Under the pieces are notes generated by a model. That model was not told the DNA's origin, ran no database searches, and saw only the letters and a program-made list of their open reading frames with translations. Made by a program: the position numbers and the translations under genes. A stretch of DNA of 64,000 bases from Lacipirellula parvula. Its GTDB lineage: Bacteria > Planctomycetota > Planctomycetia > Pirellulales > Lacipirellulaceae. Location of the stretch: contig NZ_AP021861.1 of NCBI RefSeq assembly GCF_009177095.1, positions 2,090,501-2,154,500 on the forward strand, read 5' to 3'. Below, piece after piece: positions 1,158 to 30,794 of the stretch. Positions within the stretch are counted from its first letter, which is position 1. Each line of letters starts with the position of its first letter.

Positions 1158-2807
1158 CTAGGCGCCGGAAGCACGCAAGCTAGTGGTCTTGATGTCGCCT
1201 AAACGTTGACCCGCGGCTGCGCGGCGGGACAAATCGTCGGCAATGACCGCATCGACCTCGCGTTCATTGAGCCATTCGACTGTCGGCGCTCTGAGCTGGG
1301 CCAGGCTCCTGGCGTAGCGATAGGCGGAGTTGGCGGATAGGCCGCGGTCCAGCGACTCGCACAATTGGTCAGCGATTGAGGAGCGAGCACTCAGCGCGGG
1401 TTCGAACAGGCGGAGCACGTAGTTTGCATTCGCTTCGTCGGCGGCGAGTTGGGCAAATCGGGGGGCAAGGTTGAACTCGCAAAACAGTGATTGCAGAACC
1501 GACTCGACATGGGCCGCGTTGAGTTTTTCGCCGACCAGATCGCTTGTGGCATCGGTCTTGCCGACGAAGCGCAGCAGCGGCGTCTCGCGGAAGAAGCCCA
1601 CGACTTCGATTTGGTCGTGCAGTTGGTAGCGATAAAGTCCGCCCTGCGTGGTAACCAGCACTTCGTAGTGGCGTCCCGCTTCGAGTTCATGGGCCAGGAG
1701 CAAGCGAGCCGCTTCCAGCGGCGGGCGATCGATGGGGCGAAATTCGAAGAAGTGCGATCGAATCGCCAAGGCTGGCGCCGTCTGGCTTACGAGGGGGACG
1801 CTGACGAACGCCTCGGTTGCTAACAGCCCCTTGGGTTGAAGTTCAATGCCATTGAGATAAGTTTGTAGATGATTGGCGTAAGATCGCGACGGGCCGTCCG
1901 TCCAGCAGCTGACGAGCCGTAGCTTCGGCCAGATCGCGCGAATGCAATCGGCGATGCGATCGCTGTTGCCCAGCAGTTCGCGAAGTGCTTGGGCTCGCTG
2001 CGGTCGAGGTTCAAACGGCTGTTGCCATCGTGGGGCGTGACGGGGCGACGAGGGCGTTGAGATATTGCCTAGCTCGATGTCGCGGCAGAGTTCGTCCCAG
2101 TGAAGCCAGAGGAAATTCAACAGTTCCGTTAGAAACGTCGGACTCCACACCGATATCAAGCTGAGGCGCGGATCTCGAAGCAGAAAGAACAACGTTGCGT
2201 AACGGCACGAGGCAATATCAGGAGCCAGGGCGAGAGTCGACGGCACGGCCATCGTCCGCTCGACGAGCATTTTTTCGAACTTGCCGAGGTAGGCGGCGTC
2301 TTCATCGAAACCGATTGGAGTGCCGCCGCTCGTCTTGCGAGGTAATGACGCCAGCGGCGAGATAGACCAGTATGCAGTTCCCTGGCGTACGGCTGGGCGA
2401 GAGGAGAAGAGATCCCAAATCCAAACCTTAATCGCCCGCTGGAACGCGCGCCTCAGCGAGGCGGTGTAGGGGATCAGCTTGTCGCCCCGACTCGAACCGC
2501 CTGTAGGCTCGAGGAGGTCGACTCGCTCCGCCGTCAACACGCGAGACTCGCCATGGGAAATCCGATCGACTGGTCCGCGATAGTCGTCGTAATTTGAGAC
2601 CGGAACGGCGTCCTGGAATTCATCAACGCTGCTGATTGCTGAGAACCGATGCTGCTTGCCGAACCATGTCTGGCGATTGTCCTGCACGATGCGTCGCAGC
2701 AAGCGTGCCTGCGTCTGCTGCACGACGCCGGTCGATCGCCGATATGCTTGTGCTTCGCGGAAGCAGGCGGCCATCCAGAAGGTGTTGCAGAAACTCGGAC
2801 CAAACAC
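1158..2807 (-). CDS. GH3-family acyl-adenylating enzyme (acyl-acid amido synthetase-like)
   Basis: The 549-residue protein resembles the GH3 auxin-responsive superfamily, adenylate-forming enzymes that activate a carboxylic acid with ATP and transfer it to an amine. The ATP-binding motif EPTGGSSRGDKLIPYT lies near residue 100. A second conserved block around EVLVTTQGGLYRYQLHD and RFVGKTDATSDLVGEKL (residues 380-430) corresponds to the GH3 C-terminal nucleotide- and acyl-binding region. Length matches the family (about 550-600). It is the last gene of the minus-strand operon, only 3 bp after the preceding gene. In this context I infer that it activates a carboxyl group made or modified by the upstream enzymes, perhaps for amide formation with the neighbouring GNAT proteins. 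Substrate unknown. Confidence 0.8.
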   Translation of the reverse strand: MFGPSFCNTFWMAACFREAQAYRRSTGVVQQTQARLLRRIVQDNRQTWFGKQHRFSAISSVDEFQDAVPVSNYDDYRGPVDRISHGESRVLTAERVDLLEPTGGSSRGDKLIPYTASLRRAFQRAIKVWIWDLFSSRPAVRQGTAYWSISPLASLPRKTSGGTPIGFDEDAAYLGKFEKMLVERTMAVPSTLALAPDIASCRYATLFFLLRDPRLSLISVWSPTFLTELLNFLWLHWDELCRDIELGNISTPSSPRHAPRWQQPFEPRPQRAQALRELLGNSDRIADCIRAIWPKLRLVSCWTDGPSRSYANHLQTYLNGIELQPKGLLATEAFVSVPLVSQTAPALAIRSHFFEFRPIDRPPLEAARLLLAHELEAGRHYEVLVTTQGGLYRYQLHDQIEVVGFFRETPLLRFVGKTDATSDLVGEKLNAAHVESVLQSLFCEFNLAPRFAQLAADEANANYVLRLFEPALSARSSIADQLCESLDRGLSANSAYRYARSLAQLRAPTVEWLNEREVDAVIADDLSRRAAAGQRLGDIKTTSLRASGA

Positions 2808-2810
2808 GAG

Positions 2811-3545
2811 TTATCCTGCGAGTGGGACGGAAGCGGCGGGGTAGATGACGCGAAGAGCTGCAGCGGTAAAGTTGGCCTTCGACAGCGGAGCCACGCAGCA
2901 GAGTTCATCGCCCCGTTGATAGCCTGGATTGCGAGCAATGAAGTAACGAACGTGTCGATCGGATTGCGCTCGATGGCCGGGATCAGCGAGGGTTGCTCGG
3001 ACATATTCCTTGTCGGGCATCGCTCGGATCAATTGAGTATTGGCATCGTAACCGAGCGGAGCCACCTCCCTGGCGAGTGCGTCAATCACGGCGCGCTCGC
3101 GACTCGGCGTTGGTGCGTCGGCGCTAGGGAACCACTCGCGAAAGAACAACGGCAAGTATTTATAAGTGCGAAAACCCTTCGACGTAAGGAACCAGTAGAG
3201 AGGTTGCTCGGCGTGGCTTTCGATCAGCGACACTGCCAGTCGACCCCACTCGTGGGCGAGGGCAATGTCGCCCCAGTGCTGCGGATCGACGACGGTGTCT
3301 CCCGAGAACAATGCCCTGACAAGTTTTCCGTCGACTTCAGCTTGCAGCAGCGTCTGCGTCGAAAACCCAGCCAGACGTTCCGAGAGGGGATCGTGAACTT
3401 GGACCACCCACTCCTTGGCAGCCAAGTCGGCTTCGAACTGCTTTCGCTGAATATTCGCATACGCTCGCTGCATCAGGCCGAACATCGCATCGCGATCGCA
3501 TGCGACCAGATCGCTAACTTTGATAAGTGAACTGCGAAGTCTCAC
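2811..3545 (-). CDS. GNAT-like acyltransferase, unknown acceptor
   Basis: The 244-residue protein has the general look of an acyl-CoA or acyl-ACP N-acyltransferase: an N-terminal segment on recognising a surface (LMQRAYANIQRKQFEADLAAKEWVV), a central strand-rich part (GKLVRALFSGDTVVDPQHWG), then a helical part (WGRLAVSLIE) and a hydrophobic aromatic region (WFLTSKGFRTYKYLPLFFREW). I do not see a textbook GNAT Q/RxxGxG/A motif, so the fold call is tentative. It sits between a second GNAT-like gene (10-bp gap) and the GH3 gene (3-bp gap), which implies co-translation and a shared pathway, possibly acyl transfer to an amine or hydroxyl. It could equally be an uncharacterised planctomycete family. 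Confidence 0.5.
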   Translation of the reverse strand: MRLRSSLIKVSDLVACDRDAMFGLMQRAYANIQRKQFEADLAAKEWVVQVHDPLSERLAGFSTQTLLQAEVDGKLVRALFSGDTVVDPQHWGDIALAHEWGRLAVSLIESHAEQPLYWFLTSKGFRTYKYLPLFFREWFPSADAPTPSRERAVIDALAREVAPLGYDANTQLIRAMPDKEYVRATLADPGHRAQSDRHVRYFIARNPGYQRGDELCCVAPLSKANFTAAALRVIYPAASVPLAG

Positions 3546-3555
3546 GTCAACTTCC

Positions 3556-4677
3556 CTACAGGCAGCCGAGTTCCAAGTAGGGAACTCGTTGAGTTAGTTC
3601 GGCAAGGTCAGGCGGCTGGTCGGGCCAGAATACCAGATACAGCTGCGTCACGTACTCTCTGCCGCCGATGGTTCGAGCAATCGGCAGAAGCGGATCAGCA
3701 GCGTGCAACCCCAGGAATACCAGACGGTCGCCACGTTGAAGCAACTCGCGGCTCATCGCCCCGATCAAACGACGGCAGATTTCCGCATCGTTTTCAGCAA
3801 CGACTAAGATCGCACCATAGCGTGCAGCCAGGATGCTTCCGGGCGCTGGCAAGGTAGCTCGCTTTCTCATGTTGGCGACGACATTGTAAGCGGGACGAGT
3901 CAGCGCCAGCCACCTGCTGTAACTGTGAATAATCGTTTGCTTGAAGCGGCTTTGATCCCAGGCGCCCCAGACGCCAACAAGCTGATCGTCGCGGAAAGCG
4001 AGCATGACGTCACCGGGGGAAAGCCCTTGGAGCCAGCCTTGTTCGCTAAAGAGATCGGCGGCGGCGTACGCAGGGAAGAATTGCCGTCGCGGCCCGTGAG
4101 CGTTGAGAAAAGTAATGATCTGTTCTCGGTCATCGATCGTTGCGAGTCGCGTTGAAATCCTGGTTGAAGAATCTTGATCGATACGACTCGTCGCCGCTGG
4201 ATTCAGCGAGGTCGTGACGTAGTCGCCCAAGGAATGGTAAGTCGGCAGCCCGGCTCTGCCGGAGGTGATTGTCTTGAGTGCGACCACGTTGTCGGCAGCG
4301 ATTGTCGTCAGGTAGTAGGGGGCTGCTCGATCTGCATGCAGCTGGCGAAGAAAGCGATACCCGCGTGCAATCAGAGCTCCTTGCCCTCGGTATTCCGCAA
4401 GCAGCCGAAGTCCGCCGAGGTAGCCCACGTTGGTTGGTTGCTGGTTGACGTATCTTGGGCCGGCGGTGCGACTGCCCATGCCGACAATTCGGCCCTGCTC
4501 CACGTCTCTGCCGACGACAATTTGCACAAGTTTGCCGTCGACCGGCGTGGCGGCGAAGAAGTTCGGCTCACGAGCGAAGCTGATCGAGATCTGTCCAGTC
4601 ATCGGCGTCGATGAAAGCACCTCGCGCAGCTCGGCATCATCATCCGCCGTGGCGAGCGTGAACTCGAACTTTCCCAT
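3556..4677 (-). CDS. GNAT-family N-acetyltransferase-like protein (tandem domains)
   Basis: The 373-residue protein reads as two GNAT-like halves. Residues 1-150 contain AREPNFFAATPVDG, IVGMGSRTAGPRYVNQQ and then VGYLGGLRLLAEYRGQG, a good match to the GNAT motif A loop (R/QxxGxG/A) that binds the acyl-CoA pyrophosphate. The second half (about 170-350) repeats the pattern more weakly (LVGVWGAWDQSRFKQTII). The start at 4677 overlaps the end of the upstream radical SAM gene by 38 bp, consistent with translational coupling. Role within the operon is inferred: transfer of an acyl group onto an amine of the pathway intermediate. Tandem GNATs are also known in aminoglycoside and mycothiol-type enzymes, so substrate cannot be assigned. 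Confidence 0.65.
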   Translation of the reverse strand: MGKFEFTLATADDDAELREVLSSTPMTGQISISFAREPNFFAATPVDGKLVQIVVGRDVEQGRIVGMGSRTAGPRYVNQQPTNVGYLGGLRLLAEYRGQGALIARGYRFLRQLHADRAAPYYLTTIAADNVVALKTITSGRAGLPTYHSLGDYVTTSLNPAATSRIDQDSSTRISTRLATIDDREQIITFLNAHGPRRQFFPAYAAADLFSEQGWLQGLSPGDVMLAFRDDQLVGVWGAWDQSRFKQTIIHSYSRWLALTRPAYNVVANMRKRATLPAPGSILAARYGAILVVAENDAEICRRLIGAMSRELLQRGDRLVFLGLHAADPLLPIARTIGGREYVTQLYLVFWPDQPPDLAELTQRVPYLELGCL

Positions 4678-6019
4678 GACGTTTCACTTGGTGATTGGGG
4701 GCGAGTCCGAGCTGCAGTCCTTGGCGTAGATCGATGTCAAAGTGCGAGCCCAGGTTGAGGCCAAGGTAGACGCCCAGCATCGTGGCACTGCTGGCATTGG
4801 CTTCGCGGTCGAACAGGCGTCCGAAGATGGAGCTCCAACCGTAGAACTCTCGTCGTGCCCAAAGACATCCCGCTTCCAGCTCTGCAGGAGTCATCTTCTT
4901 CGGGTTAAAGACTACGTCGCCAACCCGACCCGACGGTTCGAGCCACCATTTTTCCTGGAGCAGCCGTCCTTCCGCCAGCAGTCGGCGGTAGAGCGGCGTG
5001 CCGGGGAACGGCACGAGGTGGTTGAACGCCGCCAAGAACAGTTGATGTTCCCGAGCGAAGTCGACGCTCTGTTTGATCACCGCCCAATCATCTTCGTCGT
5101 AGCCGAAGACGAAGGTACCGTAGACGGCGAGGCCATGCTTGCGAAACTGACGCAAGCTGGCTTCGTAAGTGGCGTGAGCCGTATTCCAGTCCTTGCCCAT
5201 CGCCTTGAGGTTCGCGGCGTTGATCGATTCCATGCCAATCAGCACGCCGCGACAACCGCTCGCGACCATCGCGGCCAAGAGGTCGTCGTCGTTGGCGACG
5301 TGGATGCTCGCCTGACCGACCCAGCTGATGTTCAGCGGCTGCAGTTCGCGGCAAAGTTCGCGGGCTTTACCCGGTTGGCTGACGATGTTGTCGTCGACGA
5401 TGAAGAATCGCTGGCTGCCAGTCTGCTCCATCTCTTCAGCGACGTCGCGAGCGGGCCGATGATTTTGAGCAGCGCCATGGACGGCCGTAATGGAGCAGAA
5501 ATCGCATTTGAAATTACACCCGCGGGCATACTCGACCAGCGTAATGTTCTGGTAGGGGCGGCCGGCAAAGATCCTGCGGTCAGGTCGCACATTCCCCAGT
5601 TCTCGACGGCCGCGTCCGTCGTACACCGGTTTCAATCGGCCCGACCTGGCATCGGCGAGCAATTGACTCCAGACCGGTTCCGCATCGCCGATGACGATCG
5701 CATCGGCGTGCTCTTGAACCTCCTCTGGAATCAATGTCGCGTGATAACCGCCCATCACCACGGTAACTCCGCGTTGCCGAAACTCCGCGGCGATTGCATA
5801 CGAACGGAGGGCAGTGAACGTTTCGACGCTAATGACGACCAGATCGGTTGAGTCGTCGTAGGGGATCGCTTCCATCCGGTCATCGTAGAAGCAAGTCTCC
5901 ACGTCTGGCGGCATCAAGCTGGCGAGCACCGCCATTGATAACGGCTGCATCTGCCAGGCCTTCACATAAGACTTCCCTTCTTTGCGGCCGACGGCTGGGT
6001 AGATGAGCGTGATCTTCAT
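4640..6019 (-). CDS. B12-binding-domain radical SAM enzyme (first of two)
   Basis: The 459-residue protein has an N-terminal cobalamin-binding Rossmann-like domain (residues 1-130, with VVMGGYHATLIPEE) followed by a radical SAM TIM-barrel. The cluster ligands are C168, C172 and C175 in ARGCNFKCDFCS, the CxxxCxxC motif. Further barrel landmarks are FIVDDNI near residue 205 and GVLIGMESI near 255. B12-radical SAM enzymes methylate unactivated carbons or rearrange skeletons; hopanoid C2-methylase HpnP is a lipid-acting example. The C-terminal extension of about 100 residues is typical of this lipid-type subgroup. It lies 35 bp after the second B12-radical SAM gene, and I infer successive carbon-centred modifications of one intermediate. 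Confidence 0.85.
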   Translation of the reverse strand: MKITLIYPAVGRKEGKSYVKAWQMQPLSMAVLASLMPPDVETCFYDDRMEAIPYDDSTDLVVISVETFTALRSYAIAAEFRQRGVTVVMGGYHATLIPEEVQEHADAIVIGDAEPVWSQLLADARSGRLKPVYDGRGRRELGNVRPDRRIFAGRPYQNITLVEYARGCNFKCDFCSITAVHGAAQNHRPARDVAEEMEQTGSQRFFIVDDNIVSQPGKARELCRELQPLNISWVGQASIHVANDDDLLAAMVASGCRGVLIGMESINAANLKAMGKDWNTAHATYEASLRQFRKHGLAVYGTFVFGYDEDDWAVIKQSVDFAREHQLFLAAFNHLVPFPGTPLYRRLLAEGRLLQEKWWLEPSGRVGDVVFNPKKMTPAELEAGCLWARREFYGWSSIFGRLFDREANASSATMLGVYLGLNLGSHFDIDLRQGLQLGLAPNHQVKRHGKVRVHARHGG

Positions 6020-6054
6020 GCGTAAGCGTTTGCCTTCCTGATCCGGTGCGGCCG

Positions 6055-7413
6055 CTAGACTGCGACGGGCTCAACCTGATGCGACTCAGTCAACGAGAGG
6101 TCGCGAAAAATCCCTTGAGCCTTCGAAGGCAAATGTTGAGCGAAGTAACGATACCCGAGATTCGTCGACAACCAAAGCGGAAGAATCGACCAAGGGGCGC
6201 CGCTGAGGCGTCGGAAGAATGACGGCCAACTGTAGCTTTGCTGCCAACTCCATTTAAGACCCTCCTGCAATCGCTCCGGGCTCATGCCCTTCGGCTGGAA
6301 AACGACGTGCTCGACGTCGTAGAGCGACCAGTTGCGATGGAGCAACCGGCCCTCGGCTTCCAGTCGGCGATAGAGCGGCGTTCCCGGAAACGGCGTCGCC
6401 ACAGCGTACCTCGGCAGATCGATCTTCGTCTTATCGACAAACTCTACGGTGCGTTCGAAGACCGATTCGTCTTCGTCGTCAAATCCAAATACGAAGCAGC
6501 CTTGAATGCCGATGCCGTGATCGTGCAGGCGACGGACATGCTCAGCGTAGCGAGAAGCGGCGTGAAATTGTTTGCGGGCGCCGTTGAGCGTCGCCTGGCT
6601 GACCGACTCGAAGCCGATCAGCACGCCTTTGCACCCGCTTTGAGCCGCGAGTTTCAAGAGTTCGGCGTCTTCTGCCAAACGAGTCGTCGCTAGTCCCAAC
6701 CAGCGGATCCGCAGCGGGATCATCGCCCGATACAACGCCTTCGCGTAATTCACGTCCTCGACGGGACTGAGGTCGATAAAAATTGCATGTCGACCTTCAA
6801 ACGTTTGTAGTTCCGCAATGACGTCATCGACCGGCCGATGAGCGTAGACTCCCTTCCAGGCCGTGGGAACGACGCAGAAGTCACACTGATGGGGACAGCC
6901 TCGCGTCGCCTCAATACTGTTGACGGTCGCGTATCCTTTCTTCCTCAGGAGCTCACGCCGTGCAATCGGAACGCCGCGTAGTTCACGGCCAGTCGGTGCA
7001 AAATAATGCGGCCGTAGGTTTCCCGCTGAATAATCTCGCAGCAGTTGCGGCCAAGTCTGTTCTGCGTACCCGGTGACGAGCGAATCAGCATGCCGGCTAG
7101 CTTCCTCCGGCATGAGCGTCGGGTGAACGCCTCCTAGGACGACCGTGTGACCGCGAGCCCGCAATTCATCCGCGATATTGTAGGCTCGTTGAGCGGTGCC
7201 GGTGATCGCCGTGATGCCCACGACGTCGGCGTCGAAATTAAGATCGAGCGGTTGCACCCCTTCGTCCTGGATCGTCACCTCGGCTCCCAACTCTTCCGGC
7301 ACCATGGCCGCGAGCGTTGTTAGCGTTAACGGTGCGTAGCGAAGCGATCGTTTGAAGATCCCCGTCGAATTGCGATGGATCTCTCCCGCCGGCGATAGCA
7401 GTTGGATTTTCAC
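6055..7413 (-). CDS. B12-binding-domain radical SAM enzyme (second of two)
   Basis: The 452-residue protein has the same architecture as its neighbour but is clearly divergent. The cobalamin-binding domain (residues 1-140) carries VVLGGVHPTLMPEE, and the radical SAM motif is TRGCPHQCDFC with C173, C177 and C180. Later barrel motifs are FIDLSPVEDV and GVLIGFESVSQ. The C-terminal portion (ATPFPGTPLYRRLEAEGRLL, then WSWQQSYSWPSFFRRL) parallels the first enzyme, so the two are old paralogues. It is encoded 15 bp downstream of the SnoaL-like gene and 35 bp upstream of the other radical SAM gene. Two related enzymes side by side suggest two sites or two steps on one substrate. Confidence 0.85.
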   Translation of the reverse strand: MKIQLLSPAGEIHRNSTGIFKRSLRYAPLTLTTLAAMVPEELGAEVTIQDEGVQPLDLNFDADVVGITAITGTAQRAYNIADELRARGHTVVLGGVHPTLMPEEASRHADSLVTGYAEQTWPQLLRDYSAGNLRPHYFAPTGRELRGVPIARRELLRKKGYATVNSIEATRGCPHQCDFCVVPTAWKGVYAHRPVDDVIAELQTFEGRHAIFIDLSPVEDVNYAKALYRAMIPLRIRWLGLATTRLAEDAELLKLAAQSGCKGVLIGFESVSQATLNGARKQFHAASRYAEHVRRLHDHGIGIQGCFVFGFDDEDESVFERTVEFVDKTKIDLPRYAVATPFPGTPLYRRLEAEGRLLHRNWSLYDVEHVVFQPKGMSPERLQEGLKWSWQQSYSWPSFFRRLSGAPWSILPLWLSTNLGYRYFAQHLPSKAQGIFRDLSLTESHQVEPVAV

Positions 7414-7428
7414 GACAGCGGGCTCGGG

Positions 7429-8040
7429 CTAGGTGATGGGGGCGACAGCGGGACGGCGGCGAGTGACTAGCCACAGCAGCAGGGCGCCGATGAAGATGCC
7501 GGCGACGCCGCCGATGACGCCCGAGTAGGTCGACGCGCGCTGGAGCGAAGTGATCGTGAACACATTCGTGAGTGCATCCATCGACCCGTGGATGCGAACG
7601 ATTTTCCACTGATCGCCATCTCGACGGCAGACGGCCGTCCAGAAACCTTCGAACGGGTATTCTTTACCATCGGACGTGACGGCCAAGTCCTTCGTCGTGC
7701 CCACGGCGTACGCGAGATCCCCAACGATGACTGCCGGTTGCGGGACTACCACCTCAACGGTGTACTTACCGCCTTGGCCGAGGTACCCCTGAACTTTCTG
7801 CCAGTAGGCATCCAAGCCAGCTAGATTCGTGACCTCTTCGCCTGTCACCATCACCCCGGTGAAATCGTCGGCCAGATGCGGCTTCAAACTATTAGGGTCG
7901 CCTGCGGCGATTGCCTGCTCGTAGGCAGTAACAAGCTCTTTCAATGCAGCATGGTCTGCATCCTCATCGGCAACCGCCGATCCTGATAGCGACCATCCGC
8001 TCAGCGTCACACAGAGGCAAAGTAAGAGAGGCCGAATCAT
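7429..8040 (-). CDS. Exported SnoaL/DUF4440-like protein with C-terminal membrane anchor
   Basis: The 203-residue protein starts with a signal peptide (LLLCLCVTLSGWSLSG, cleavage likely near AVADE). A SnoaL/DUF4440-type cone domain covers about residues 28-155 (ELVTAYEQAIAAGDPNSLKPHLADDF, then FEGFWTAVCRRDGDQWKIVRIHGS). A single C-terminal transmembrane helix (GVIGGVAGIFIGALLLWLV, about 172-190) ends in an RRR stop-transfer signal. SnoaL-like domains isomerise, cyclise or bind small molecules. The double targeting places it on the outer face of the inner membrane. Its start overlaps the upstream acyltransferase stop by 4 bp (ATGA), so it belongs to the operon; its exact job is unknown. Confidence 0.65.
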   Translation of the reverse strand: MIRPLLLCLCVTLSGWSLSGSAVADEDADHAALKELVTAYEQAIAAGDPNSLKPHLADDFTGVMVTGEEVTNLAGLDAYWQKVQGYLGQGGKYTVEVVVPQPAVIVGDLAYAVGTTKDLAVTSDGKEYPFEGFWTAVCRRDGDQWKIVRIHGSMDALTNVFTITSLQRASTYSGVIGGVAGIFIGALLLWLVTRRRPAVAPIT

Positions 8041-8762
8041 TCGAATTCCTTTCTGAACCGCTGCGTGCGGCGATGCGAGCCGTTACGAAACTCAGTGAAC
8101 GGAGCAAACGGACGACCGCCGGGCGTCTGTTCGCAGGCGTCAACGACGACGCCCGCAGGCAGCAGCGTGCAGCCGCCGACCAGTGCATCAGAACCAACAG
8201 TGATCGGCGCCAAAATGAGCTTCGTCGAGCCAGATGAAAGCTTGGCGAGAAAATGCGGGTAGAGCTTCGCATCGATCCCGAATACGACGCGATCCCCAAT
8301 ATGCAAGTAGGGCCGATCGGTCACCCGCACGCCCGGTGACCAGTAGACTAGGCGTCCGATTTTAGCTCCCCACAATCGCAACCATGCCGAGTAGAGGCTC
8401 GGGACAAGTCTCAAAACTTCTTCCAAGATTGGAAGGCGATTGAAGACGACTTGCCACTGAGTTGCGTACCACCAGGCGAGAAAGCCGCGTGAACCTAGCT
8501 CATGCGAAATAGGTTGAGTTGAGCCGGCCGATTGACCAATAACCCGAACCGCCAGAGGCGGGAGCAAGTAAAGAACTCCCACGGCAGCCACCGCGAGCCA
8601 GGATGAACCTCCTGCCAATTGCGAAAGTACCAACAAGCCGATTACCGTGCCGACGTGCAGCAGCGGCACATAGCCGAGCAGGACCATGCCGAGGCGATAG
8701 CTATTGGTGACGACGATTGCGGGTTGCGTGGCGGGTTGGCTAGCGGATAACTCGGCCGGCAT
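8037..8762 (-). CDS. Left-handed beta-helix (hexapeptide) acyltransferase-like membrane protein
   Basis: I place the start at the ATG at 8762, which gives 241 residues; an upstream start at 8801 would overlap the desaturase gene more deeply. The N-terminal 80 residues hold two hydrophobic segments (GMVLLGYVPLLHVGTVIGLLVL and WLAVAAVGVLYLLPPLAV). The C-terminal 130 residues contain hexapeptide-repeat turns typical of left-handed beta-helix transferases (IGRLVYWSPGVRVTD, IGDRVVFGID, LILAPITVGSDALVGG, CTLLPAGVVVD). Such folds transfer acyl groups to sugars, lipids or small molecules. It overlaps the next gene by 4 bp. A membrane-bound acyltransferase or isomerase acting on a lipid intermediate is the likely role; donor and acceptor are unknown. 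Confidence 0.65.
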   Translation of the reverse strand: MPAELSASQPATQPAIVVTNSYRLGMVLLGYVPLLHVGTVIGLLVLSQLAGGSSWLAVAAVGVLYLLPPLAVRVIGQSAGSTQPISHELGSRGFLAWWYATQWQVVFNRLPILEEVLRLVPSLYSAWLRLWGAKIGRLVYWSPGVRVTDRPYLHIGDRVVFGIDAKLYPHFLAKLSSGSTKLILAPITVGSDALVGGCTLLPAGVVVDACEQTPGGRPFAPFTEFRNGSHRRTQRFRKEFE

Positions 8763-9657
8763 AGCGGTTCTCCACTCGTTCGGTTGCCTGTCGCGGACCA
8801 CGCCACATCCGTAGATAGTGCCAGATCAAGAACTCGCGAGTCGCCCCTTGTTCCCGCGAAAGCCGCGGCAGGTAGTACCACGAGACCGTCGGCCGCTGGT
8901 GATGCGTGTGATGCCAGTTGTGATGGAGCCACATCCAGTCGATGGGCTTCCATATCCACAGATTTCTTGAACCGTTGACGACGTCTCGTTCCGTCCCGAA
9001 ATGGTGGACGTATTGCATCGCCGACCAAGTGACGCCGAAGCCGACATAGACGCAGAGGTACGACAGCACCGGAATGCCAAATCCCCAGACAATCGCCGCG
9101 TGAAACGCGATGGCCGCTCCCCCTTCGCAGCGGATCCGTCGCAGCACGCTGCGGTTGAGCGAATCCATGAACGCCGCGGATGGACGGTCGAACTCAAAGA
9201 ATCGACGCTTCAATACTGACGGGATAAGCACGACGATCACATTCGAAAAGACGATCGTCAACCAGAAGAAGCCGGACAAGATGCCGTAGAGTTGGAGCCA
9301 CTTCCATAACGGCGTTTCGCCTTCGAAATAAAAATCGAAGGCTTCGTCGTCGGACCGATTTCGCAGGTGATGCCCGAGATGCCCCTGACGCAGCAGATGA
9401 AATGACGCCGGAAAGAACAAAGCCAGAAACGTGCCCATGCCGTCGTTGAGACGCCGCGATGGGCAGAAAATGCCATGTTCTGCTTCGTGCATCATCGCGT
9501 AGATCGAGTTGCCGATCAGTGCGAAGCTCAATGCGAGAAGCGCGAGCTGCCACCACTGCGTCGCGAATGCAGCCAGCCGAAAGATGGCGAAGGCGACAGT
9601 AACCTGAACGGCGGCGATCGTAAAATTCAGTCGCCATGGAATAGGGAATTCGCTCAT
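8740..9657 (-). CDS. Fatty-acid desaturase-type di-iron membrane enzyme
   Basis: The 305-residue protein carries the three histidine boxes of the membrane desaturase/hydroxylase family: HEAEH (residues 57-61), HLGHH (93-97) and HHNWHHTHH near residue 245. Hydrophobic stretches between them are the membrane hairpins. These enzymes use O2 and electrons from ferredoxin or cytochrome b5 to desaturate, hydroxylate or oxygenate an acyl or isoprenoid chain. The start ATG at 9657 overlaps the stop of the Rieske oxygenase gene by 4 bp, so the two oxygen-dependent enzymes are translationally coupled. I infer that they act in sequence on the cluster product. Position of the modification cannot be deduced. 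Confidence 0.85.
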   Translation of the reverse strand: MSEFPIPWRLNFTIAAVQVTVAFAIFRLAAFATQWWQLALLALSFALIGNSIYAMMHEAEHGIFCPSRRLNDGMGTFLALFFPASFHLLRQGHLGHHLRNRSDDEAFDFYFEGETPLWKWLQLYGILSGFFWLTIVFSNVIVVLIPSVLKRRFFEFDRPSAAFMDSLNRSVLRRIRCEGGAAIAFHAAIVWGFGIPVLSYLCVYVGFGVTWSAMQYVHHFGTERDVVNGSRNLWIWKPIDWMWLHHNWHHTHHQRPTVSWYYLPRLSREQGATREFLIWHYLRMWRGPRQATERVENRYAGRVIR

Positions 9658-10682
9658 TTTGCCGCCTCGTACTCACTGCGAGGCAGGGTCGTGAGCCACT
9701 CAAAGAACGCGATCATATCGCGATCCTGGGGAGTGAACCCCGACGGTTGGTAGCGGACGCCGCTCAGCTTGTCGATGTCGTATCGCATGAACGCCTGCGT
9801 GAACCGGCGTCGCACTCGGAGGTTGAGTCGGTCGACGAACGCTGCCTGCAAAGGGTTGCGGCTTCGCTTGGCAAACACGATAACGTCCGACAGCGTCCGG
9901 TTCTCGCCAAGGGGTTGGCTGATGATCAGGATCCGACTGTGAGCTCGCCCAAACACTCCTTCAACCAGTACGTGCGGACCGCCCCAGCTGGTAATGCTGA
10001 TCTGCACGTCCCTACCGACGAAACGTTTGAGCAGCCGATCGTAGATAGAAGTTCCGGTGATCTCCGCATCGAATCGCATGCGCCGAGCGTACTCGTGCGG
10101 GCAATCAACCTGCGGAGCTCCCTTCAACTTCCTGTCGTGCACGGCATAAAAGTGCTGGGTATCGAAGCCATTGCCGGGGAGCATGTACCAGGGGCAGTCC
10201 ATTTCAAATCGAAACGGCGAGCTGGCGGACATTTCATTGGGATCGCTTCCGGGAAAGAACGGCAGCGGAAATAACGCCCGTGGGCCGAAGAAGAAAAAGA
10301 TATAGCCGTGTCGCTCGACGACAGGATAAGATCGGAGGCACGCCGATCGCGGCACGTCGCGGTGATTAGGAACTGAGACGCACTTGCCGTTCGCGTCGTA
10401 GTTCCAGTGATGGAACGGACATTGGATCGATTCGCCGACGACTTCGCCTCGTCCAAGGTCCGCCCCCAGGTGAGCACAGTTGGCGTCGAGCACGGCAACC
10501 CGACCTGCGGCGGTGCGGTAAGCGACCAGTCGCCGCTGCAGAATGGATTTGGAGAGAGGTTTTCCGGCGACATCCGTAGACCGACTGAATAGATACCACG
10601 TCGCCGGGAGCGTAGCGAAATCCGCCGAATCAGCAACGATCGGCGTGATCGCAGCGGCAGGTTGGTCTGCGGTGTGAATCAT
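9654..10682 (-). CDS. Rieske non-haem iron oxygenase (PaO/DAF-36-like)
   Basis: The 342-residue protein has an N-terminal Rieske [2Fe-2S] domain with ligands C69 and H71 (NCAHLGADLG) and C88 and H91 (QCPFHHW). The catalytic domain supplies a mononuclear-iron site with H177 and H182 (DTQHFYAVHDR). This layout and length match the Rieske oxygenases that act on hydrophobic substrates, such as pheophorbide a oxygenase, choline monooxygenase relatives and sterol 7-desaturase. It is the promoter-proximal gene of the nine-gene minus-strand operon; transcription must start in the 93-bp gap before the divergent PAP2 gene. Substrate is unknown, but the neighbouring genes argue for a lipid. Confidence 0.85.
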   Translation of the reverse strand: MIHTADQPAAAITPIVADSADFATLPATWYLFSRSTDVAGKPLSKSILQRRLVAYRTAAGRVAVLDANCAHLGADLGRGEVVGESIQCPFHHWNYDANGKCVSVPNHRDVPRSACLRSYPVVERHGYIFFFFGPRALFPLPFFPGSDPNEMSASSPFRFEMDCPWYMLPGNGFDTQHFYAVHDRKLKGAPQVDCPHEYARRMRFDAEITGTSIYDRLLKRFVGRDVQISITSWGGPHVLVEGVFGRAHSRILIISQPLGENRTLSDVIVFAKRSRNPLQAAFVDRLNLRVRRRFTQAFMRYDIDKLSGVRYQPSGFTPQDRDMIAFFEWLTTLPRSEYEAAK

Positions 10683-10775: not shown

Positions 10776-11414
10776 ATGCCTTTAAAAGCCACGCGATTCA
10801 CTTGGCCCGATCGAGACCGCGTCGCCGCTTTTCTCGGCTACGGATCGCTGCTCTGCGTCTTGTGGGTCGTTGTCTACGGCGGTGTGTCGTGGCTCACCGG
10901 GTTGCACGGCTATCGAATTGACTTCGGGTGGAACGAGGAGTCGTACATCCCCTTCTTGCCGGAAATGGCGGTGATTTACCTGTCGCTGTTTCCCATGATC
11001 TGGCTCTCGCTGTTTATTCTGCCGACCCCCGCTGATATTAAACAGTTCGCGGTGGCGCTGGCTTGTCTCTTTGTGGTTTCAGGGATCGGTTTCGTGATCT
11101 TGCCCGGCCGGACATACTCCCCAGCTGAATCGGCAAGAGGACCGATTCAGCCTGTGTTTGAGTTCGCCGACTGGATTAATCTGGAACACAACTACTTGCC
11201 ATCGCTTCACGTTGGGATGGCTGTCGTCTGTGCGTACGCTTATGGGCGGCAACTCCGCCGAGGCGTCGCACTTTTCTTCTGGGCATGGGCCACGGCGGTC
11301 GCACTTTCGACCTTACTCACGCATCAGCATTACATCGCCGACGTCGTTGCCGGCGGGGTAGTCGGCTGGTTGGTCGGTTCTATTTCATACTCGAAACTGA
11401 ACCTCTCCGCGTGA
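10776..11414 (+). CDS. PAP2-family membrane phosphatase
   Basis: The 212-residue protein has about five or six transmembrane helices and the PAP2 active-site blocks: PSLHVGMAVV (residues 142-151), where the histidine protonates the leaving group, and LLTHQHYIADVVAGG (about 182-196), the C3 motif with the nucleophilic His-Asp pair. The first lysine/arginine block is weak. PAP2 enzymes dephosphorylate lipid phosphates such as phosphatidate or isoprenyl diphosphates, or act in inositol-phosphoceramide-type transfer. It is divergent from the oxygenase operon across 93 bp and might share its regulation and act on a lipid head-group of the same pathway, but that is inference. Confidence 0.75.
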   Translation: MPLKATRFTWPDRDRVAAFLGYGSLLCVLWVVVYGGVSWLTGLHGYRIDFGWNEESYIPFLPEMAVIYLSLFPMIWLSLFILPTPADIKQFAVALACLFVVSGIGFVILPGRTYSPAESARGPIQPVFEFADWINLEHNYLPSLHVGMAVVCAYAYGRQLRRGVALFFWAWATAVALSTLLTHQHYIADVVAGGVVGWLVGSISYSKLNLSA

Positions 11415-11672: not shown

Positions 11673-11724
11673 CGGGGGCGCTCGCGACCACTATTTTTAG
11701 AGATCAATAATCGCTTCAATTGCG

Positions 11725-11756
11725 GGGCCGCGTCCTACGGGCGTTGGCCCTTTTTT
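11725..11756 (+). terminator. Intrinsic terminator after the SEC-C gene
   Basis: GGGCC (11725-11729) pairs with GGCCC (11746-11750), with an inner CGTCC/GGGCG stem, and is followed at once by TTTTTT (11751-11756). It lies upstream of, and argues against, any start before about 11760 for the next gene. Confidence 0.7.
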
Positions 11757-11806
11757 GTTACAACTCATCGTCAGGCGACGAACTGCGGGGGAGCGGGAGT
11801 ACAACC

Positions 11807-12757
11807 TTGAAAAACCGCGTTCATCACAGCGACAACCTTATTTACTCCGTCGGTACGCAGGTTGTCGCACTGAAACACATTCAGGGGACTGACGGCCAAA
11901 CCGTTCACCCCGCCGGTGCTGTGGGCGTGATCATCCGCTCACCGCAGGATCGGGCCCATTCTTACCACATCCGCTTCGTCGATGGATTTGAAGCCGCGAT
12001 TCATCATGATGGGCTGGCTTTGCTGGCTGAGTACAAGCTGGGGACGATCAACGATTCTCAGCAAGTGTTGGCAACGCACGGGCTCTTTCATCGAGTGATT
12101 CTGCGATGCGTCATCGGATCGAGAGCGTATGGACTCGACACGGAAAATTCAGACACCGATCGCCGAGGGATCTACCTGCCGCCGGCTGATCTCCACTGGT
12201 CGCTTTACGGAGTGCCCGAACAGCTAGAGGACGAAGCCACTCAGGAGGCTTATTGGGAGCTGCAAAAGTTCCTCATCATGGCCCTGAAGGGAAACCCAAA
12301 CGTATTAGAGTGCCTCTACACGCCGCTGGTGGAGTTCGCCTCGCCGCTGGCTCAAGAGCTGCTCGACATGCGGTCGATCTTCTTGTCGCGGCTGGTCTAC
12401 CAAACTTACAACGGCTACGTCATGTCGCAATTCAAGCGGATGCAAGCCGATGAGCGAAATCAAGGCCAGGTGAAGCCGAAGCATGTGATGCACCTGATCC
12501 GGCTCCTGCTTTCCGGCATTCACGTGCTACGAGAAGGTTTTGTGCCGGTGGAGGTGGGCGAGCACCGACCCCAACTACTGGCGATAAAGTCTGGTGAAAT
12601 GCCCTGGCACGACGTGGAGGCGTGGCGATTGCGGCTCCATCAGGAGTTTGATCGAGCGTTGGAAACGACCAGCTTGCCGGAACGCCCGGACTACGAGCGA
12701 GTCAACGAATTCTTGGTAAAGGCCCGTCGGCAGGCAGTCGAAGAGGTCCTGCCGTGA
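11807..12757 (+). CDS. Polymerase-beta-type nucleotidyltransferase (COG3541-like) with N-terminal SH3-like domain
   Basis: The likely start is the TTG at 11807, which has GGGAG 8 bp upstream; earlier starts would run through the terminator. This gives 316 residues. Residues 10-75 (VGTQVVALKHIQG to HIRFVDGFEAAI) look like a small beta-barrel, KOW/SH3-type domain. The nucleotidyltransferase core follows with RCVIGSRAYGLDTENSDTDRRG: the GS...DxD signature of the fold, whose two acidic residues bind Mg2+. The rest is helical. Its stop overlaps the next gene by 4 bp. Members of this family are uncharacterised predicted nucleotidyltransferases, often near RNA-modifying or conflict genes. Target is unknown. 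Confidence 0.75.
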   Translation: MKNRVHHSDNLIYSVGTQVVALKHIQGTDGQTVHPAGAVGVIIRSPQDRAHSYHIRFVDGFEAAIHHDGLALLAEYKLGTINDSQQVLATHGLFHRVILRCVIGSRAYGLDTENSDTDRRGIYLPPADLHWSLYGVPEQLEDEATQEAYWELQKFLIMALKGNPNVLECLYTPLVEFASPLAQELLDMRSIFLSRLVYQTYNGYVMSQFKRMQADERNQGQVKPKHVMHLIRLLLSGIHVLREGFVPVEVGEHRPQLLAIKSGEMPWHDVEAWRLRLHQEFDRALETTSLPERPDYERVNEFLVKARRQAVEEVLP

Positions 12758-13128
12758 ACGATGCCGTGACGCTATTTCGACCCGTCGGCCAGCAAGAGCT
12801 GGATCTCATCCGCGATGCCCAGTGGCGAGCGTTCCCGCCCCGGCTCGTCGGCCAGCCGATCTTCTACCCAGTGCTCACTGAAGATTACGCCGTTCGCATC
12901 GCTCGAGAGTGGAATACAAAGGATCCCAACTCCGGTTTCGTCGGCTATGTGCTGCAGTTTGAGGTGAACGCCGAGTTTCTAGGGCGGTACGACGTTCAAG
13001 AGGCGGGCGGCCGTGAGTTGCTGGAGTACTGGATCCCAGCGGAGGAACTCACGGTTTTCAATGCGAACATTGTCGGACCGATTCGCGTCCTTCATGAATT
13101 CCGACCGAGTGGTGAAAATTCCTCATGA
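12754..13128 (+). CDS. ADP-ribosylation/crystallin J1-like small protein
   Basis: The 124-residue protein begins TLFRPVGQQELDLI and contains FPPRLVGQPIFYPVLTEDYAV, IAREWNTKD and LEYWIPAEELTVFNANIVGPI. This pattern is that of the short bacterial proteins labelled ADP-ribosylation/crystallin J1; that label is historical and no catalytic activity is established. The R-x-V...F-P-P-R segment and the GFVGYVLQFEV strand are reminiscent of ADP-ribosyl-binding or transferase folds, but this is weak. The gene overlaps both neighbours by 4 bp (ATGA each time), between two nucleotidyltransferases, so the three products are probably made in fixed proportion and work together. Confidence 0.65.
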   Translation: MNDAVTLFRPVGQQELDLIRDAQWRAFPPRLVGQPIFYPVLTEDYAVRIAREWNTKDPNSGFVGYVLQFEVNAEFLGRYDVQEAGGRELLEYWIPAEELTVFNANIVGPIRVLHEFRPSGENSS

Positions 13129-13877
13129 TCGATTACGCCAAACTTCGCCGACAAGTCGACGCCCATCCTTTTCCGCTGGTCTTCGCGACTATCAGCGGAG
13201 CACATTTGTATGGCTTCCCGTCGCCTGATTCCGACTTCGATCTGCGAGGCGTCCACCTGTTGCCGCTGCAGCAAGTCGTCGGCATGACGCCTGGCGAGGA
13301 GACGGTCGAGAAATCCGGCGTTTACGACGGCATGGAAGTCGACTTGGTGACGCACGACGCCAAGAAGTTCTTCGGACTGATGCTAAAGCAGAACGGTTAC
13401 GTCCTCGAACAGCTCCTTTCGCCATTGGTCGTTCACGCGACGCCGGAGCATGAGGAGCTGAAGGAACTCGCCAGGCAGTGCGTCACTCGCTACCACGGTC
13501 ATCACTACCTGGGATTCGCAGCGACCCAGTGGAAGCTCTTTCGGAAGGAGGAACCGCCGCGGGTAAAACCGCTTCTTTACGTTTACCGGGTGCTGTTGAC
13601 CGGAATCCACCTCGTGAGGTCCGGAGAAGTCGAGGCCAACCTGTTGACGCTCAATGAATCGGCCAAGCTGCCGTACATCGACGAATTGGTGGAGCGGAAG
13701 CGATCTGGCCCTGAGAAGGGAAAGCTCGACGCAGCGGACGTGGCGTTCCACGAGCAGGAATACTTGCGACTCGTGGCTGCTCTCGAAGCCGCGGGAGGAA
13801 TGTCCACGTTGCCGGAGCAACCAAGCTGTGCGGAGCAGCTGAACGATCTGTTGGTACGGCTTCGCCTCAGCAAGTGA
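13125..13877 (+). CDS. Polymerase-beta-type nucleotidyltransferase (second copy)
   Basis: The 250-residue protein carries ISGAHLYGFPSPDSDFDLRGVH (residues about 20-41), the GS/A...DSDxD nucleotidyltransferase signature, with an aspartate pair for metal binding. It lacks the N-terminal SH3-like domain of its neighbour. Helical C-terminal segments resemble the first protein (YVYRVLLTGIHLVRSGEV against HLIRLLLSGIHVLREGFV), so the two are paralogues that have diverged. It is third in an overlapping operon. The paired enzymes might act as a heterodimer or on two related substrates; a role in RNA end processing is a guess from the fold only. Confidence 0.75.
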   Translation: MIDYAKLRRQVDAHPFPLVFATISGAHLYGFPSPDSDFDLRGVHLLPLQQVVGMTPGEETVEKSGVYDGMEVDLVTHDAKKFFGLMLKQNGYVLEQLLSPLVVHATPEHEELKELARQCVTRYHGHHYLGFAATQWKLFRKEEPPRVKPLLYVYRVLLTGIHLVRSGEVEANLLTLNESAKLPYIDELVERKRSGPEKGKLDAADVAFHEQEYLRLVAALEAAGGMSTLPEQPSCAEQLNDLLVRLRLSK

Positions 13878-14134: not shown

Positions 14135-14722
14135 ATGTGGTCTCGTCGAGAAGAATCGCTTCCTGAAGCGTCAGGCGTCCACTACGAAATTGCGTTCAAC
14201 GAGCAGCCAGCCACATTCGGCAATGTCGCGCACGCATGGCGGGAGGACGAGAATTTCCGCTTATGGTTCAACTCTCTGTTAGCAGCTTCTCCCTTCACTG
14301 CTTTCCGCTGGGAGACGCCGGGAGTCTGCTTAGCAACGCTTCAGCGACCGTTCGAATTTGTCTTACTCGATGCTCCGCGATTGGCTCGTCAACCTGACGC
14401 AAACGCCTTTTCAAAGCATTTCCCGAGCGCGAGCGAGGGCATCGCAACGTTTGCCAATCTGGGCGGCGACGCTGTACTGGTCGTCCCAACTCCGTTGACG
14501 GAGCACAACGCCTACGGACACTTGGCGGCCTTCGTACGACAAGCTCCCCAGCGACAATGCCATGCCTTATGGCAAGCGGTCGGAAGGGCAATGGATGCTC
14601 GACTCAATCATCAGCCTGTCTGGCTGAGCACGGCTGGGGCTGGCGTCTCTTGGCTGCACGTCCGACTCGACGACGCCCCGAAATACTATGCACATCGTCC
14701 GTATCAGCAAGCATCGGTCTAA
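14135..14722 (+). CDS. DUF6940-like protein of unknown function
   Basis: The 195-residue protein resembles the DUF6940 family: an N-terminal segment YEIAFNEQPATFGNVAHAWRED, then FRLWFNSLLAASPFTAFRWE, a central PFEFVLLDAP and a C-terminal stretch with WLSTAGAGVSWLHVRLDDAPKYY near residue 165. The glycine-rich GAGVSWLHVR-YY end is the most conserved-looking part. No catalytic motif is evident. It is on the same strand as the nucleotidyltransferase operon, about 250 bp after it, and is the last gene before the tRNA fragment, so it probably belongs to the ancestral chromosome side of the island junction. Confidence 0.6.
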   Translation: MWSRREESLPEASGVHYEIAFNEQPATFGNVAHAWREDENFRLWFNSLLAASPFTAFRWETPGVCLATLQRPFEFVLLDAPRLARQPDANAFSKHFPSASEGIATFANLGGDAVLVVPTPLTEHNAYGHLAAFVRQAPQRQCHALWQAVGRAMDARLNHQPVWLSTAGAGVSWLHVRLDDAPKYYAHRPYQQASV

Positions 14723-14909: not shown

Positions 14910-16115
14910 CTAGCCAACTTCTTCTTCTTCTTCTTCGTCGTCGTCTTCGTAGAAGTATCTGAAGTCGTCTTCGTCAGCAGGGCTACCTGGGAATCGTTCG
15001 GGCTCAGCGGCGACGCCAGCTTGGGCAATCCCGATAATCTCGCGCATGTCCGCTAAGTACGGTTGACCCAGGATCGACCGGTTTAGCAGCTCATGGAAGA
15101 CCATCGCACTAACCGCTACGTCGGGGCGTGTTAAATCGGCGAATTCCAGCTGCGGAACAACGCTGTCAACGTGCACGAACTTCTCTGAGTGTTCAAACCA
15201 AACGTTTGAAAGTTCGTGCCCAGGATTATTCAGGGCGAACGTAGTGGCACTGGCGAAAATGTCCGCCAACTGCACGCCAGGATACGCGCGCGAATCCACC
15301 ATCTCAATCTTTCTGTCTAGATTGAATGTCACTTGGTGCATGCGCCCGGCGAACGGAACTTTCCTCACGTCAGTGCGTCCGACCATCACATCAAATATGA
15401 GTGTCTGGTCAGCGATTGGTTTCGATTCGTCGCAGTAGACTTCCATTGGCTCCATGTCCGCGCCAAACGCCACTAGAATACTTCGGAGTGAAGTAGTGGA
15501 GAGTTCTAACATCCAGCCGCCTGCGCGCTGCGGCTCATCCAATATGACTTCCTCTGCAATCTTCTTTCGATTGCATACAAGAAACGTGATGATGTTGTCT
15601 ACGAAATCGTTCAGGTCAATTGCAGTGACAGCAGACGCACCCGGGATTGCAATAAGCTGCCGATCAGTACGTCCGCGCAGTGCGTCCTCAAATCGCCCAA
15701 ACACACTCTCAGCTGATGCTTTCTCCGCAATCATGAAGGCATACAGCACGTTAGCGACGAACTTATGAAACTTGATGTTGTAGAGTAGGCTGTTCACCGG
15801 CGACACAGCGGGCTCAATCAAGTACTCAAACATCTTGCAGCACAACGCGTACTTCTTGTTGGCGAACGCAACTTGTGCATGATCGGCCAGTTCCTCTATT
15901 ACTTGCCGCACAACGGCTTGCCCTCGTTGACGCTTACACAGCGACCCACCCTTAAATTCCGTCGCCTTCAGTTTGTGCTTTTCAGCCAACTCGCGCTCAT
16001 ACGCTTCCGCGCGATCAGGGGCCATGCAGACCCCTGCGAAGGCGAAGATCGGTTGATCCTCGTCCATTAACCGATTGCCGGTGAAGCCTGATTCATCACA
16101 ATAGACTGTTCGCAT
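14910..16115 (-). CDS. DUF3800-domain protein
   Basis: The 401-residue protein opens with VYCDESGFTGNRLMDEDQPIFAFAGV, the DUF3800 signature, in which the DESG motif is thought to belong to an RNase H-like fold; a second acidic patch is METMEVYCDES-like near residue 230 and a third is QLADIFAS near 290. The protein ends in a strongly acidic run (EDDDEEEEEEV) encoded by a repeated GAA/TTC tract at about 14915-14945, a slippage-prone sequence. DUF3800 proteins are frequent on phages, plasmids and defence islands; their activity is not established, although nuclease action is suspected. It is the first gene inside the tRNA-flanked region and seems to be transcribed alone. Confidence 0.75.
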   Translation of the reverse strand: MRTVYCDESGFTGNRLMDEDQPIFAFAGVCMAPDRAEAYERELAEKHKLKATEFKGGSLCKRQRGQAVVRQVIEELADHAQVAFANKKYALCCKMFEYLIEPAVSPVNSLLYNIKFHKFVANVLYAFMIAEKASAESVFGRFEDALRGRTDRQLIAIPGASAVTAIDLNDFVDNIITFLVCNRKKIAEEVILDEPQRAGGWMLELSTTSLRSILVAFGADMEPMEVYCDESKPIADQTLIFDVMVGRTDVRKVPFAGRMHQVTFNLDRKIEMVDSRAYPGVQLADIFASATTFALNNPGHELSNVWFEHSEKFVHVDSVVPQLEFADLTRPDVAVSAMVFHELLNRSILGQPYLADMREIIGIAQAGVAAEPERFPGSPADEDDFRYFYEDDDEEEEEEVG

Positions 16116-16250: not shown

Positions 16251-16805
16251 TCACGACGATAACAGATCGGCGCCCGGCGGCTTCGGTGGCAATAGCTCAA
16301 GCAGGACATCCTCGCAGAACGCCTGATACCTTTCAGCGGCCATCTGCCTATTGGCTTCTTTGTTATTCGCAGCCTCTTCAGCCATGCGAATCATCTTGTC
16401 TGCCGAGTCCTGCGGCAACTCTTCGTCGCCTGCCCTTTCAGCGAAGTGAGCAGCTGCGCCCCGCAGCCAGTCGCGGCTCGCGGCAGCATGAGCGGGGTCG
16501 CTTTCTAATCGCATGTAGTTAAGCATGAGCGAGACTACAAAGAACGTGACTGCGAAGTCTTCGACTTCCGCATTCCTGAGCTTGTAGCATCGCTCCCGAA
16601 ACGCCGAATACAAATCCTCTGCTACATCTTCCTCAGTAGGCAGGTCAGTGTCGTATGTGCCGCCAATGGACGACAGCGTTAGCCCAATTAAGTGCTGCCG
16701 TTCCAGTGGATCAACGGCATCAAGCTTGGTAAACAATCGCTCAAGCGAATTGCGACCACCAAACGGCTCGCAGATCAAATACATCACATGATACGGGTGC
16801 ATCAT
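16251..16805 (-). CDS. Unknown helical protein, partner of the trypsin-like protease
   Basis: The 184-residue protein is predicted to be almost entirely helical (LERLFTKLDAVDPLERQHLI, VEDFAVTFFVVSLMLNYMRL, then a charged C-terminal helix). I see no signal peptide, membrane segment or known motif. Its ATG overlaps the stop of the upstream protease gene by 4 bp, so the two form a coupled pair and should be made together. A helical companion next to an intracellular trypsin-like protease may be a substrate, inhibitor, adaptor or effector. Family unknown to me. Confidence 0.55.
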   Translation of the reverse strand: MMHPYHVMYLICEPFGGRNSLERLFTKLDAVDPLERQHLIGLTLSSIGGTYDTDLPTEEDVAEDLYSAFRERCYKLRNAEVEDFAVTFFVVSLMLNYMRLESDPAHAAASRDWLRGAAAHFAERAGDEELPQDSADKMIRMAEEAANNKEANRQMAAERYQAFCEDVLLELLPPKPPGADLLSS

Positions 16806-30729: not shown

Positions 30730-30794
30730 CGAGTGATTCCATTCACAATTGATATAACGCATCTTTCACCATGCCGAATTCGGATCGCTCAGCA

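Follow-up and report, generated by a model that had tools for sequence, protein, structure and literature searches.

What does a compact run of genes in the planctomycete Lacipirellula parvula make, when it lines up a Rieske oxygenase and a desaturase-family protein with two radical S-adenosylmethionine (SAM) enzymes, two GNAT proteins and a GH3-type ligase? The run occupies positions 1158-10682 of the stretch of DNA analysed here (the window), which covers 64,000 nucleotides (positions 2,090,501 to 2,154,500 of contig NZ_AP021861.1) of a host genome that is a single contig of 6.92 Mb. It belongs to a conserved functional unit that recurs across phyla and consists of a five-gene core, lettered E-F-G-H-I, together with interchangeable accessory genes, and there is about an even chance that it forms a self-contained pathway to an undescribed lipid amide or amino-lipid. 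The kinds of enzyme are known and their combination is new. The unit is undescribed in the open-access literature searched, where it was not among the papers listed by searches that combined GH3 with radical SAM enzymes (absence from print not being proven thereby), in agreement with the original prediction, which knew of no described cluster with the same set.

Gene unit and recurrence across genomes

Nine minus-strand genes at 1158-10682 had been put forward in the original prediction, and all nine open reading frames (ORFs), A to I in transcription order, are indeed open to the ends given for them. The gaps of 35 bp or less that it described also stand, whereas its 'several' 4-bp overlaps come down to two: the spacings are A/B -4, C/D -4, D/E 15, E/F 35, F/G -38, G/H 10 and H/I 3. 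Between B and C the spacing is -62 from the GTG start of C and about -23 from an in-frame ATG near 8762; the latter is the probable start, as it agrees, by eye, with the N-termini of two homologues (loci L092 and L097). The nine-gene extent left out a divergent gene, Z (10776-11414, plus strand), which is counted in the unit because 18 of 40 relatives have a homologue of it, and the gene unit is thus one of ten genes. The gene set, its linkage, its intact motifs and the folds predicted for G and for H are seen directly; catalytic-type residues are kept across the fetched relatives (conservation here means at least 93% of rows), and hydrophobic segments are present in B, C, D and Z.

A scan for E in the GTDB species genomes found 31 loci; neighbourhoods were scored with several members per family, and in all 40 distinct relatives' loci were compared, with the window not counted and E present by construction. 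The other core genes are found in 37 (F), 33 (G), 32 (H) and 29 (I) of these loci, all five occur together in 29, and in 36 the gene immediately after E is F, in the same orientation. Some of the loci come from close relatives (L073/L077 and L074/L075) and the 40 are therefore not 40 independent events. In six of the 11 incomplete loci, the cluster runs into or near a contig end. Accessory genes are far more variable: D is present in 19 of the 40, Z in 18, B in 16, A in 13, a gene Y (not found in the cluster of the window) in 11, an extra radical-SAM gene (F2) in eight, an AurF-type gene (X) in five and C in four, and two further membrane proteins occur in four loci each. The original prediction had proposed looking for the set in other genomes, and recurrence outside this strain is now evident; its single pathway survives as one conserved functional unit, but of a different composition, namely a core with exchangeable accessories.

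Full cores occur in Planctomycetota, Chloroflexota, Verrucomicrobiota and Pseudomonadota, with carriers that include Planctomycetia, Phycisphaerales, Chloroflexota, Opitutales, Mariprofundaceae, a Chromatiales bin and Budvicia aquatica; the Lacipirellulaceae relative Aeoliella straminimaris supplies locus L003. Two sets of control loci, 17 more distant E-like loci (26-44% identity) and 13 planctomycete loci of about 4 kb each, had no match to G, H, I or any accessory family (E 1e-6). At the class level, 121 of 397 genomes match E at E <= 1e-40, and 18 of the 397, counting the own genome, have an E of roughly 48% identity or higher, as read from the table; at the phylum level, 12 of 294 genomes (again with the own genome) match at E <= 1e-110. 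When the remaining ORFs of at least 70 residues were clustered and groups present in three or more loci were kept, no other cluster-specific family emerged. Small carrier proteins may have been missed. The groups that did form were, by eye, sensor-kinase-like (five loci), methyltransferase-like (four), response-regulator-like (three) and ABC-transporter-like (three). The ORFs around ten more distant E-like or E-only loci, also read by eye, offered no consistent clue to a substrate. In one metagenome-assembled genome (L002 1966-3342, 5217-6038), the F gene is broken by an in-frame stop and the GH3 gene lies on the opposite strand, unlike in its relatives, which may reflect sequencing error, a chimera or decay.

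The cluster is also carried by a plasmid. In Citrobacter portucalensis (L104; NZ_CP134684.1, 11720-23815), it lies on a 159-kb IncFIB/IncFII plasmid typed as mobilizable, where H-I-E-F-G are accompanied by two more F-type and one more E-type radical-SAM genes, and by PAP2, SnoaL-like and desaturase genes. Over ten shared genes the plasmid copies are 50-82% identical to those of Budvicia. Nine plasmid records match, the Citrobacter one alone above 36% identity, and the Budvicia F gene had no match in Escherichia coli genomes when searched in distant mode. Carriage on this plasmid suggests that the genes moved as a unit, and the cluster is apparently portable between bacteria. An alpha-2-macroglobulin-like gene set lies a few genes away from the cluster on the same plasmid.

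Core enzymes

E, F, G and H could not be placed in any specific family by searches of NCBIfam, Pfam and the PDB sequences. The broader assignments of the original prediction (Rieske, desaturase, SnoaL-like, B12-radical SAM and GH3) are all backed by Pfam matches, with the B12-binding match of F under its cut-off, and its two GNAT-like proteins are recovered as well, G by both Pfam and AlphaFold and H by its AlphaFold fold.

Gene G (3556-4677, minus strand) encodes a protein with a Pfam GNAT match only just over the cut-off (4.8e-4) and a confident AlphaFold model (predicted local distance difference test, pLDDT, 92.7), in which a tandem GNAT fold spans the whole chain; on this model G is an acyltransferase-type tandem GNAT of N-myristoyltransferase (NMT)-like architecture. 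Foldseek ranks the uncharacterised tandem GNAT MAB_4324 of Mycobacterium first (E 1.9e-12), with NMTs close behind, and VIA-align superposes G on NMT with a Z score of 23.8 and a root-mean-square deviation (rmsd) of 3.5 over 304 aligned residues; among the best 50 rows of that search 49 are NMT entries and the remaining one is MAB_4324. G differs from the eukaryotic NMTs in being only about 11-12% identical to them, bacterial and within a biosynthetic operon, and MAB_4324 is about as close to it (Z score 22.7, level with many NMT rows). In human NMT1 the C-terminal carboxylate is the catalytic base, the enzyme acylating amines with long-chain acyl-CoA, according to PMC7048800. Among the 35 G proteins read, which include those of the window and the plasmid, the last residue is Leu in 33 and Met in two. 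The alignments of G reach its last residue and, in most NMT rows, the chain end, the aligned range closing at residue 373 in the model and residue 496 in HsNMT1. A terminal Leu or Met at the structural position where NMT ends would fit an NMT-like mechanism, without being proof of it.

Gene H (2811-3545, minus strand) encodes a predicted single-GNAT protein (pLDDT 92.4) that has no Pfam match; its best Foldseek E-value is 3.4e-6, and its best structural partner is NatD (Z score 12.8, rmsd 3.0, 153 aligned residues). An SGDT motif (81-84) and Cys217 are invariant in 23 sequences.

Genes E (6055-7413) and F (4640-6019), both on the minus strand, encode a pair of radical SAM enzymes. E has Pfam matches to Radical_SAM (2.8e-14), B12-binding (5.1e-13) and DUF4070 (5.3e-6), and F to Radical_SAM (9.9e-11) and B12-binding (1.9e-6), the last below its cut-off (28.1 versus 32.1 bits) and the former above. 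The combination of a B12-binding domain with CxxxCxxC that marks cobalamin-dependent radical SAM enzymes is present, both Pfam domains lying above cut-off in E, and the cysteines are conserved in each (C173xxxC177xxC180 in 27 sequences of E; C168xxxC172xxC175 in 24 of F). Their nearest NCBIfam models are BchE, HpnJ, MJ_1487, PhpK and a ladderane-associated radical-SAM family, all of them far from reached: E scores at best 92.6 bits and F 88.6, against cut-offs of 360-650 for BchE, HpnJ, HpnR, the ladderane-associated model and PhpK. None of the seven cluster radical-SAM proteins scanned attains a named NCBIfam family, the five beyond E and F scoring at best 97.3 bits. HpnP, which the original prediction named as its example of B12-radical SAM chemistry, has no model among the matches listed for E and F. 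BchE is a non-methylating cobalamin radical-SAM enzyme, according to PMC13142503, and since it is among the nearest models, methylation by E and F cannot be assumed.

With BchE, HpnJ, HpnR and the ladderane-associated TIGR04072, the pair shares the B12-binding and radical-SAM domains, CxxxCxxC and, in E, the DUF4070 match; it differs in lying far under the curated cut-offs and in coming as an E+F pair, sometimes with two ancient paralogues. E and F form two separate groups, and the extra copies form two further ancient groups of seven sequences each (Shimodaira-Hasegawa-like approximate likelihood ratio test support of 99 and 97 in a quick tree), which occur together in six of eight loci, the cluster being cut by a contig end in the other two. 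Mutual exclusion of the Rieske gene A and this extra pair was considered: A is present in 14 and the extra pair in seven of 37 tree rows, and none has both (uncorrected P 0.024). When only the 22 rows with 6 kb or more on each side are used (eight with A, four with the extra pair) P rises to 0.14, a tree-based test of independent pairs had too few informative pairs (median p 0.5), and the two labels are not clustered on the E tree beyond shuffles (five changes for either label, a number reached or undercut in 122 and 123 of the 500 shuffles). The exclusion is thus a hypothesis only, not significant once completeness or relatedness is allowed for.

Gene I (1158-2807, minus strand) is the only GH3 gene found in the host genome, where a search returned a single match. 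Its product is assigned to the GH3-type acyl-adenylating ligases by Pfam GH3 (4.7e-50; 171 bits against a cut-off of 23.6) and GH3_M (3.8e-19), and by motifs conserved in 18 sequences (T331 E332; Y392 R393 Y394; D398; G426 E427 K428 L429). In the PDB it matches plant GH3 proteins (best 1.7e-24), and it resembles the plant acyl-acid amido synthetases in its N-terminal and central GH3 domains and motifs; it is distinct from them in being bacterial, in its linkage to lipid-type enzymes and in a C-terminal domain (GH3_C) below the cut-off. In NCBIfam, I matches OlsH (NF052613, lyso-ornithine lipid synthetase) and no other model at E <= 0.01, and it stays far below the OlsH level, reaching 62 bits against an equivalog cut-off of 620 (54.9 for the I protein of L070). 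PMC12493201 describes OlsH as a planctomycete GH3 enzyme of Singulisphaera that makes N-acyl ornithine, which the alpha/beta-hydrolase OlsI then O-acylates, and suggests that OlsH homologues outside the planctomycetes may make other N-acyl amino acids. The likeness to the system described there lies in a planctomycete GH3 beside an acyltransferase candidate, in an amino-lipid logic and in the alpha/beta-hydrolase character that OlsI probably shares with Y (judged by eye); the differences lie in the score of I, in the presence of C in the window, with Y not found in its cluster, and in the two radical-SAM enzymes, NMT-like GNAT, second GNAT, oxygenases and PAP2 protein that the cluster adds.

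Accessory genes

The Rieske non-haem iron oxygenase A (342 residues; 9654-10682, minus strand; Pfam Rieske 1.3e-18) has both the CxH/CxxH cluster ligands and the 2-His-1-carboxylate site of its family. The residues concerned, C69/H71 and C88/H91, which we take to be the cluster ligands, and H177, H182 and D320, which we take to form the 2-His-1-carboxylate site, are conserved in 14 cluster sequences, and the sequence relatives of A in the PDB are 3-ketosteroid 9alpha-hydroxylase, SxtT and DdmC. Gene B (305 residues; 8740-9657, minus strand) belongs to the membrane fatty-acid desaturase/hydroxylase family (Pfam FA_desaturase 5.7e-27), with His boxes H57/H61, H93/H96/H97 and H252/H253 conserved in ten sequences. 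Gene D (203 residues; 7429-8040, minus strand; Pfam SnoaL_3 4.8e-9) has hydrophobic segments at 5-23 (N-terminal) and 171-189 (C-terminal), which suggest that it is probably exported and membrane-anchored. The divergent Z is an integral-membrane protein of the PAP2 superfamily (Pfam PAP2_3 7.5e-10), with H145 and H185 conserved in 13 sequences.

Gene C (8037-8801, minus strand) encodes two hydrophobic segments and a hexapeptide-repeat (left-handed beta-helix, LbH) acyltransferase-like part; it has no Pfam match, and its NCBIfam matches, to WcaF-type hexapeptide acetyltransferases and a Pls/PosA terminal domain, are weak. Its earlier description as an acyltransferase is compatible with these matches, but it is hardly a regular member of the set; in the four relatives L092, L097, L099 and L100, its homologues adjoin B. 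Protein Y, unrelated to C (the window's C and the Y of L003, the one pair compared, have no sequence similarity), is carried by nine of the 13 other Rieske-bearing loci and sits between the SnoaL-like gene and E in six of them, with a desaturase gene intervening in one of the six; judged by eye, it is probably alpha/beta-hydrolase-like. C and Y as alternatives, found in five and ten of 37 tree rows with none having both (P 0.19), amount to a weak hypothesis only. The AurF-type di-iron oxygenase X was assigned by a Pfam match (1.5e-13) tested on the L003 copy only. In the Aeoliella cluster (L003 6139-7116, 3202-4458) an AurF-type gene lies inside and a nitrilase-like gene beside the cluster, and a match to this nitrilase-like gene also lies beside the cluster of L079 (10401-11285).

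Proposed pathway and alternatives

Every reaction, the order of steps and the lipid nature of the substrate are here inferred from enzyme families. Because the set is plasmid-borne and no other cluster-specific family accompanies it, one would expect the pathway to start from a common metabolite, for example a fatty acid. In the proposed order, E and F would first alter unactivated carbons of a long-chain precursor, by C-methylation or by non-methylating C-C or C-O chemistry of the BchE/HpnJ type. I would then activate a carboxylate with ATP and couple it to an amine, in the way that OlsH uses ornithine; G would add a long acyl group to an amine, possibly with its own C-terminal carboxylate as the base, and H would make a second acyl or aminoacyl transfer. 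A and B would next oxidise the chain. A new hydroxyl might be O-acylated by C here, or by Y in the nine other Rieske-bearing clusters that carry it, a step that is conjecture, and Z and D would act at or outside the membrane. A lipid substrate and an amide-forming end are plausible, and amide formation is favoured by the resemblance of G to NMT in fold and by the precedent of OlsH.

Several points weigh against this scheme. Amines that are not lipids are also substrates of enzymes with GNAT and GH3 folds. A fold shared with NMT shows no function for G, and NMT entries are so numerous in the PDB that they are favoured in ranked lists. The pyrophosphate-loop pattern typical of GNATs seems, by eye, weak in G and H, and acyl-CoA may for that reason not be the donor. 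Neither Y nor C has a confident family match in NCBIfam or Pfam. Five loci (L004, L071, L076, L093 and L102) are without part of the core despite at least 8 kb on one side, and different clusters may make different products, given how much the accessory genes vary.

The main rival is a diffusible specialised metabolite, an antibiotic- or signal-like fatty amide or hydroxamate rather than a membrane lipid, made by the same core with exchangeable oxygenases. The patchy distribution of close E homologues (18 of the 397 class genomes), the Citrobacter plasmid, the highly variable tailoring genes (AurF-type in five of 40 loci) and the ABC-transporter-like group seen by eye in three loci all speak for such a compound, which is possible, if somewhat doubtful, since there is no transporter or resistance family common to most of the loci and several of the gene products are membrane proteins. 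A lipid amide or amino-lipid with an oxidised chain edited by radical enzymes is the most likely product. A plain ornithine-lipid pathway, with I as OlsH, Y or C as OlsI and the other enzymes modifying the ornithine lipid, would fit a planctomycete pathway of GH3 and alpha/beta-hydrolase enzymes, as PMC12493201 presents it, and the sole NCBIfam match of I; it is improbable in view of the tenfold shortfall of I from the OlsH cut-off, of a window cluster in which Y was not found and of G and H, for which OlsH and OlsI leave no role.

Modification of a hopanoid, ladderane or tetrapyrrole by radical-SAM enzymes of the HpnJ/HpnR, ladderane or BchE type is suggested by the nearest models of E and F, yet the best of the seven radical-SAM proteins falls far short of every one of those cut-offs and the ORF groups beside the core are, by eye and within the core neighbourhoods covered, unlike genes for such pathways, which makes this very unlikely. 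A chance neighbourhood of unrelated genes, for which the variability of the accessory genes and nothing else argues, is contradicted by a core that stays together in 29 of 40 loci across phyla and is hardly credible. Returning to the lipid amide or amino-lipid, one may tentatively go further: the clusters could represent a new class of lipid amides, phylum-crossing and plasmid-borne, in which two to five cobalamin-type radical-SAM enzymes rebuild the chain, the NMT-like and GH3 enzymes form amides, and the Rieske module, which depends on oxygen, and the extra-pair module, which does not, interchange for the same oxidation, although this fuller picture is more doubtful than not.

What the locus offers is an orphan pathway whose minimal core can be defined and which occurs in several phyla, as well as on a plasmid typed as mobilizable. 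It joins three little-understood bacterial groups, the orphan cobalamin-type radical-SAM enzymes, the GH3 ligases recently tied to amino-lipids and the NMT-shaped GNATs, and its Rieske-bearing and extra-radical-SAM-pair clusters allow one to ask whether aerobic and anaerobic enzymes perform the same step.

Other features of the window

Beyond Z, two plus-strand genes (11720-12757 and 13125-13877) encode proteins of the RlaP family of RNA-repair nucleotidyltransferases (Pfam 6.8e-45 and 1.5e-53). They are followed by genes for a DUF6940 protein (14135-14722, plus strand), a DUF3800 protein (14910-16115, minus strand) and a weakly matching trypsin-like protein (16251-17812, minus strand) that adjoins a protein with no Pfam match. 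A resolvase-type recombinase gene (22680-23324, plus strand; Pfam 1.6e-28) is possibly the remnant of a mobile element. Further along, a minus-strand gene (30064-30762) encodes three BON-domain stretches, and the product of another at 33403-34353 (plus strand) is similar to it by eye only.

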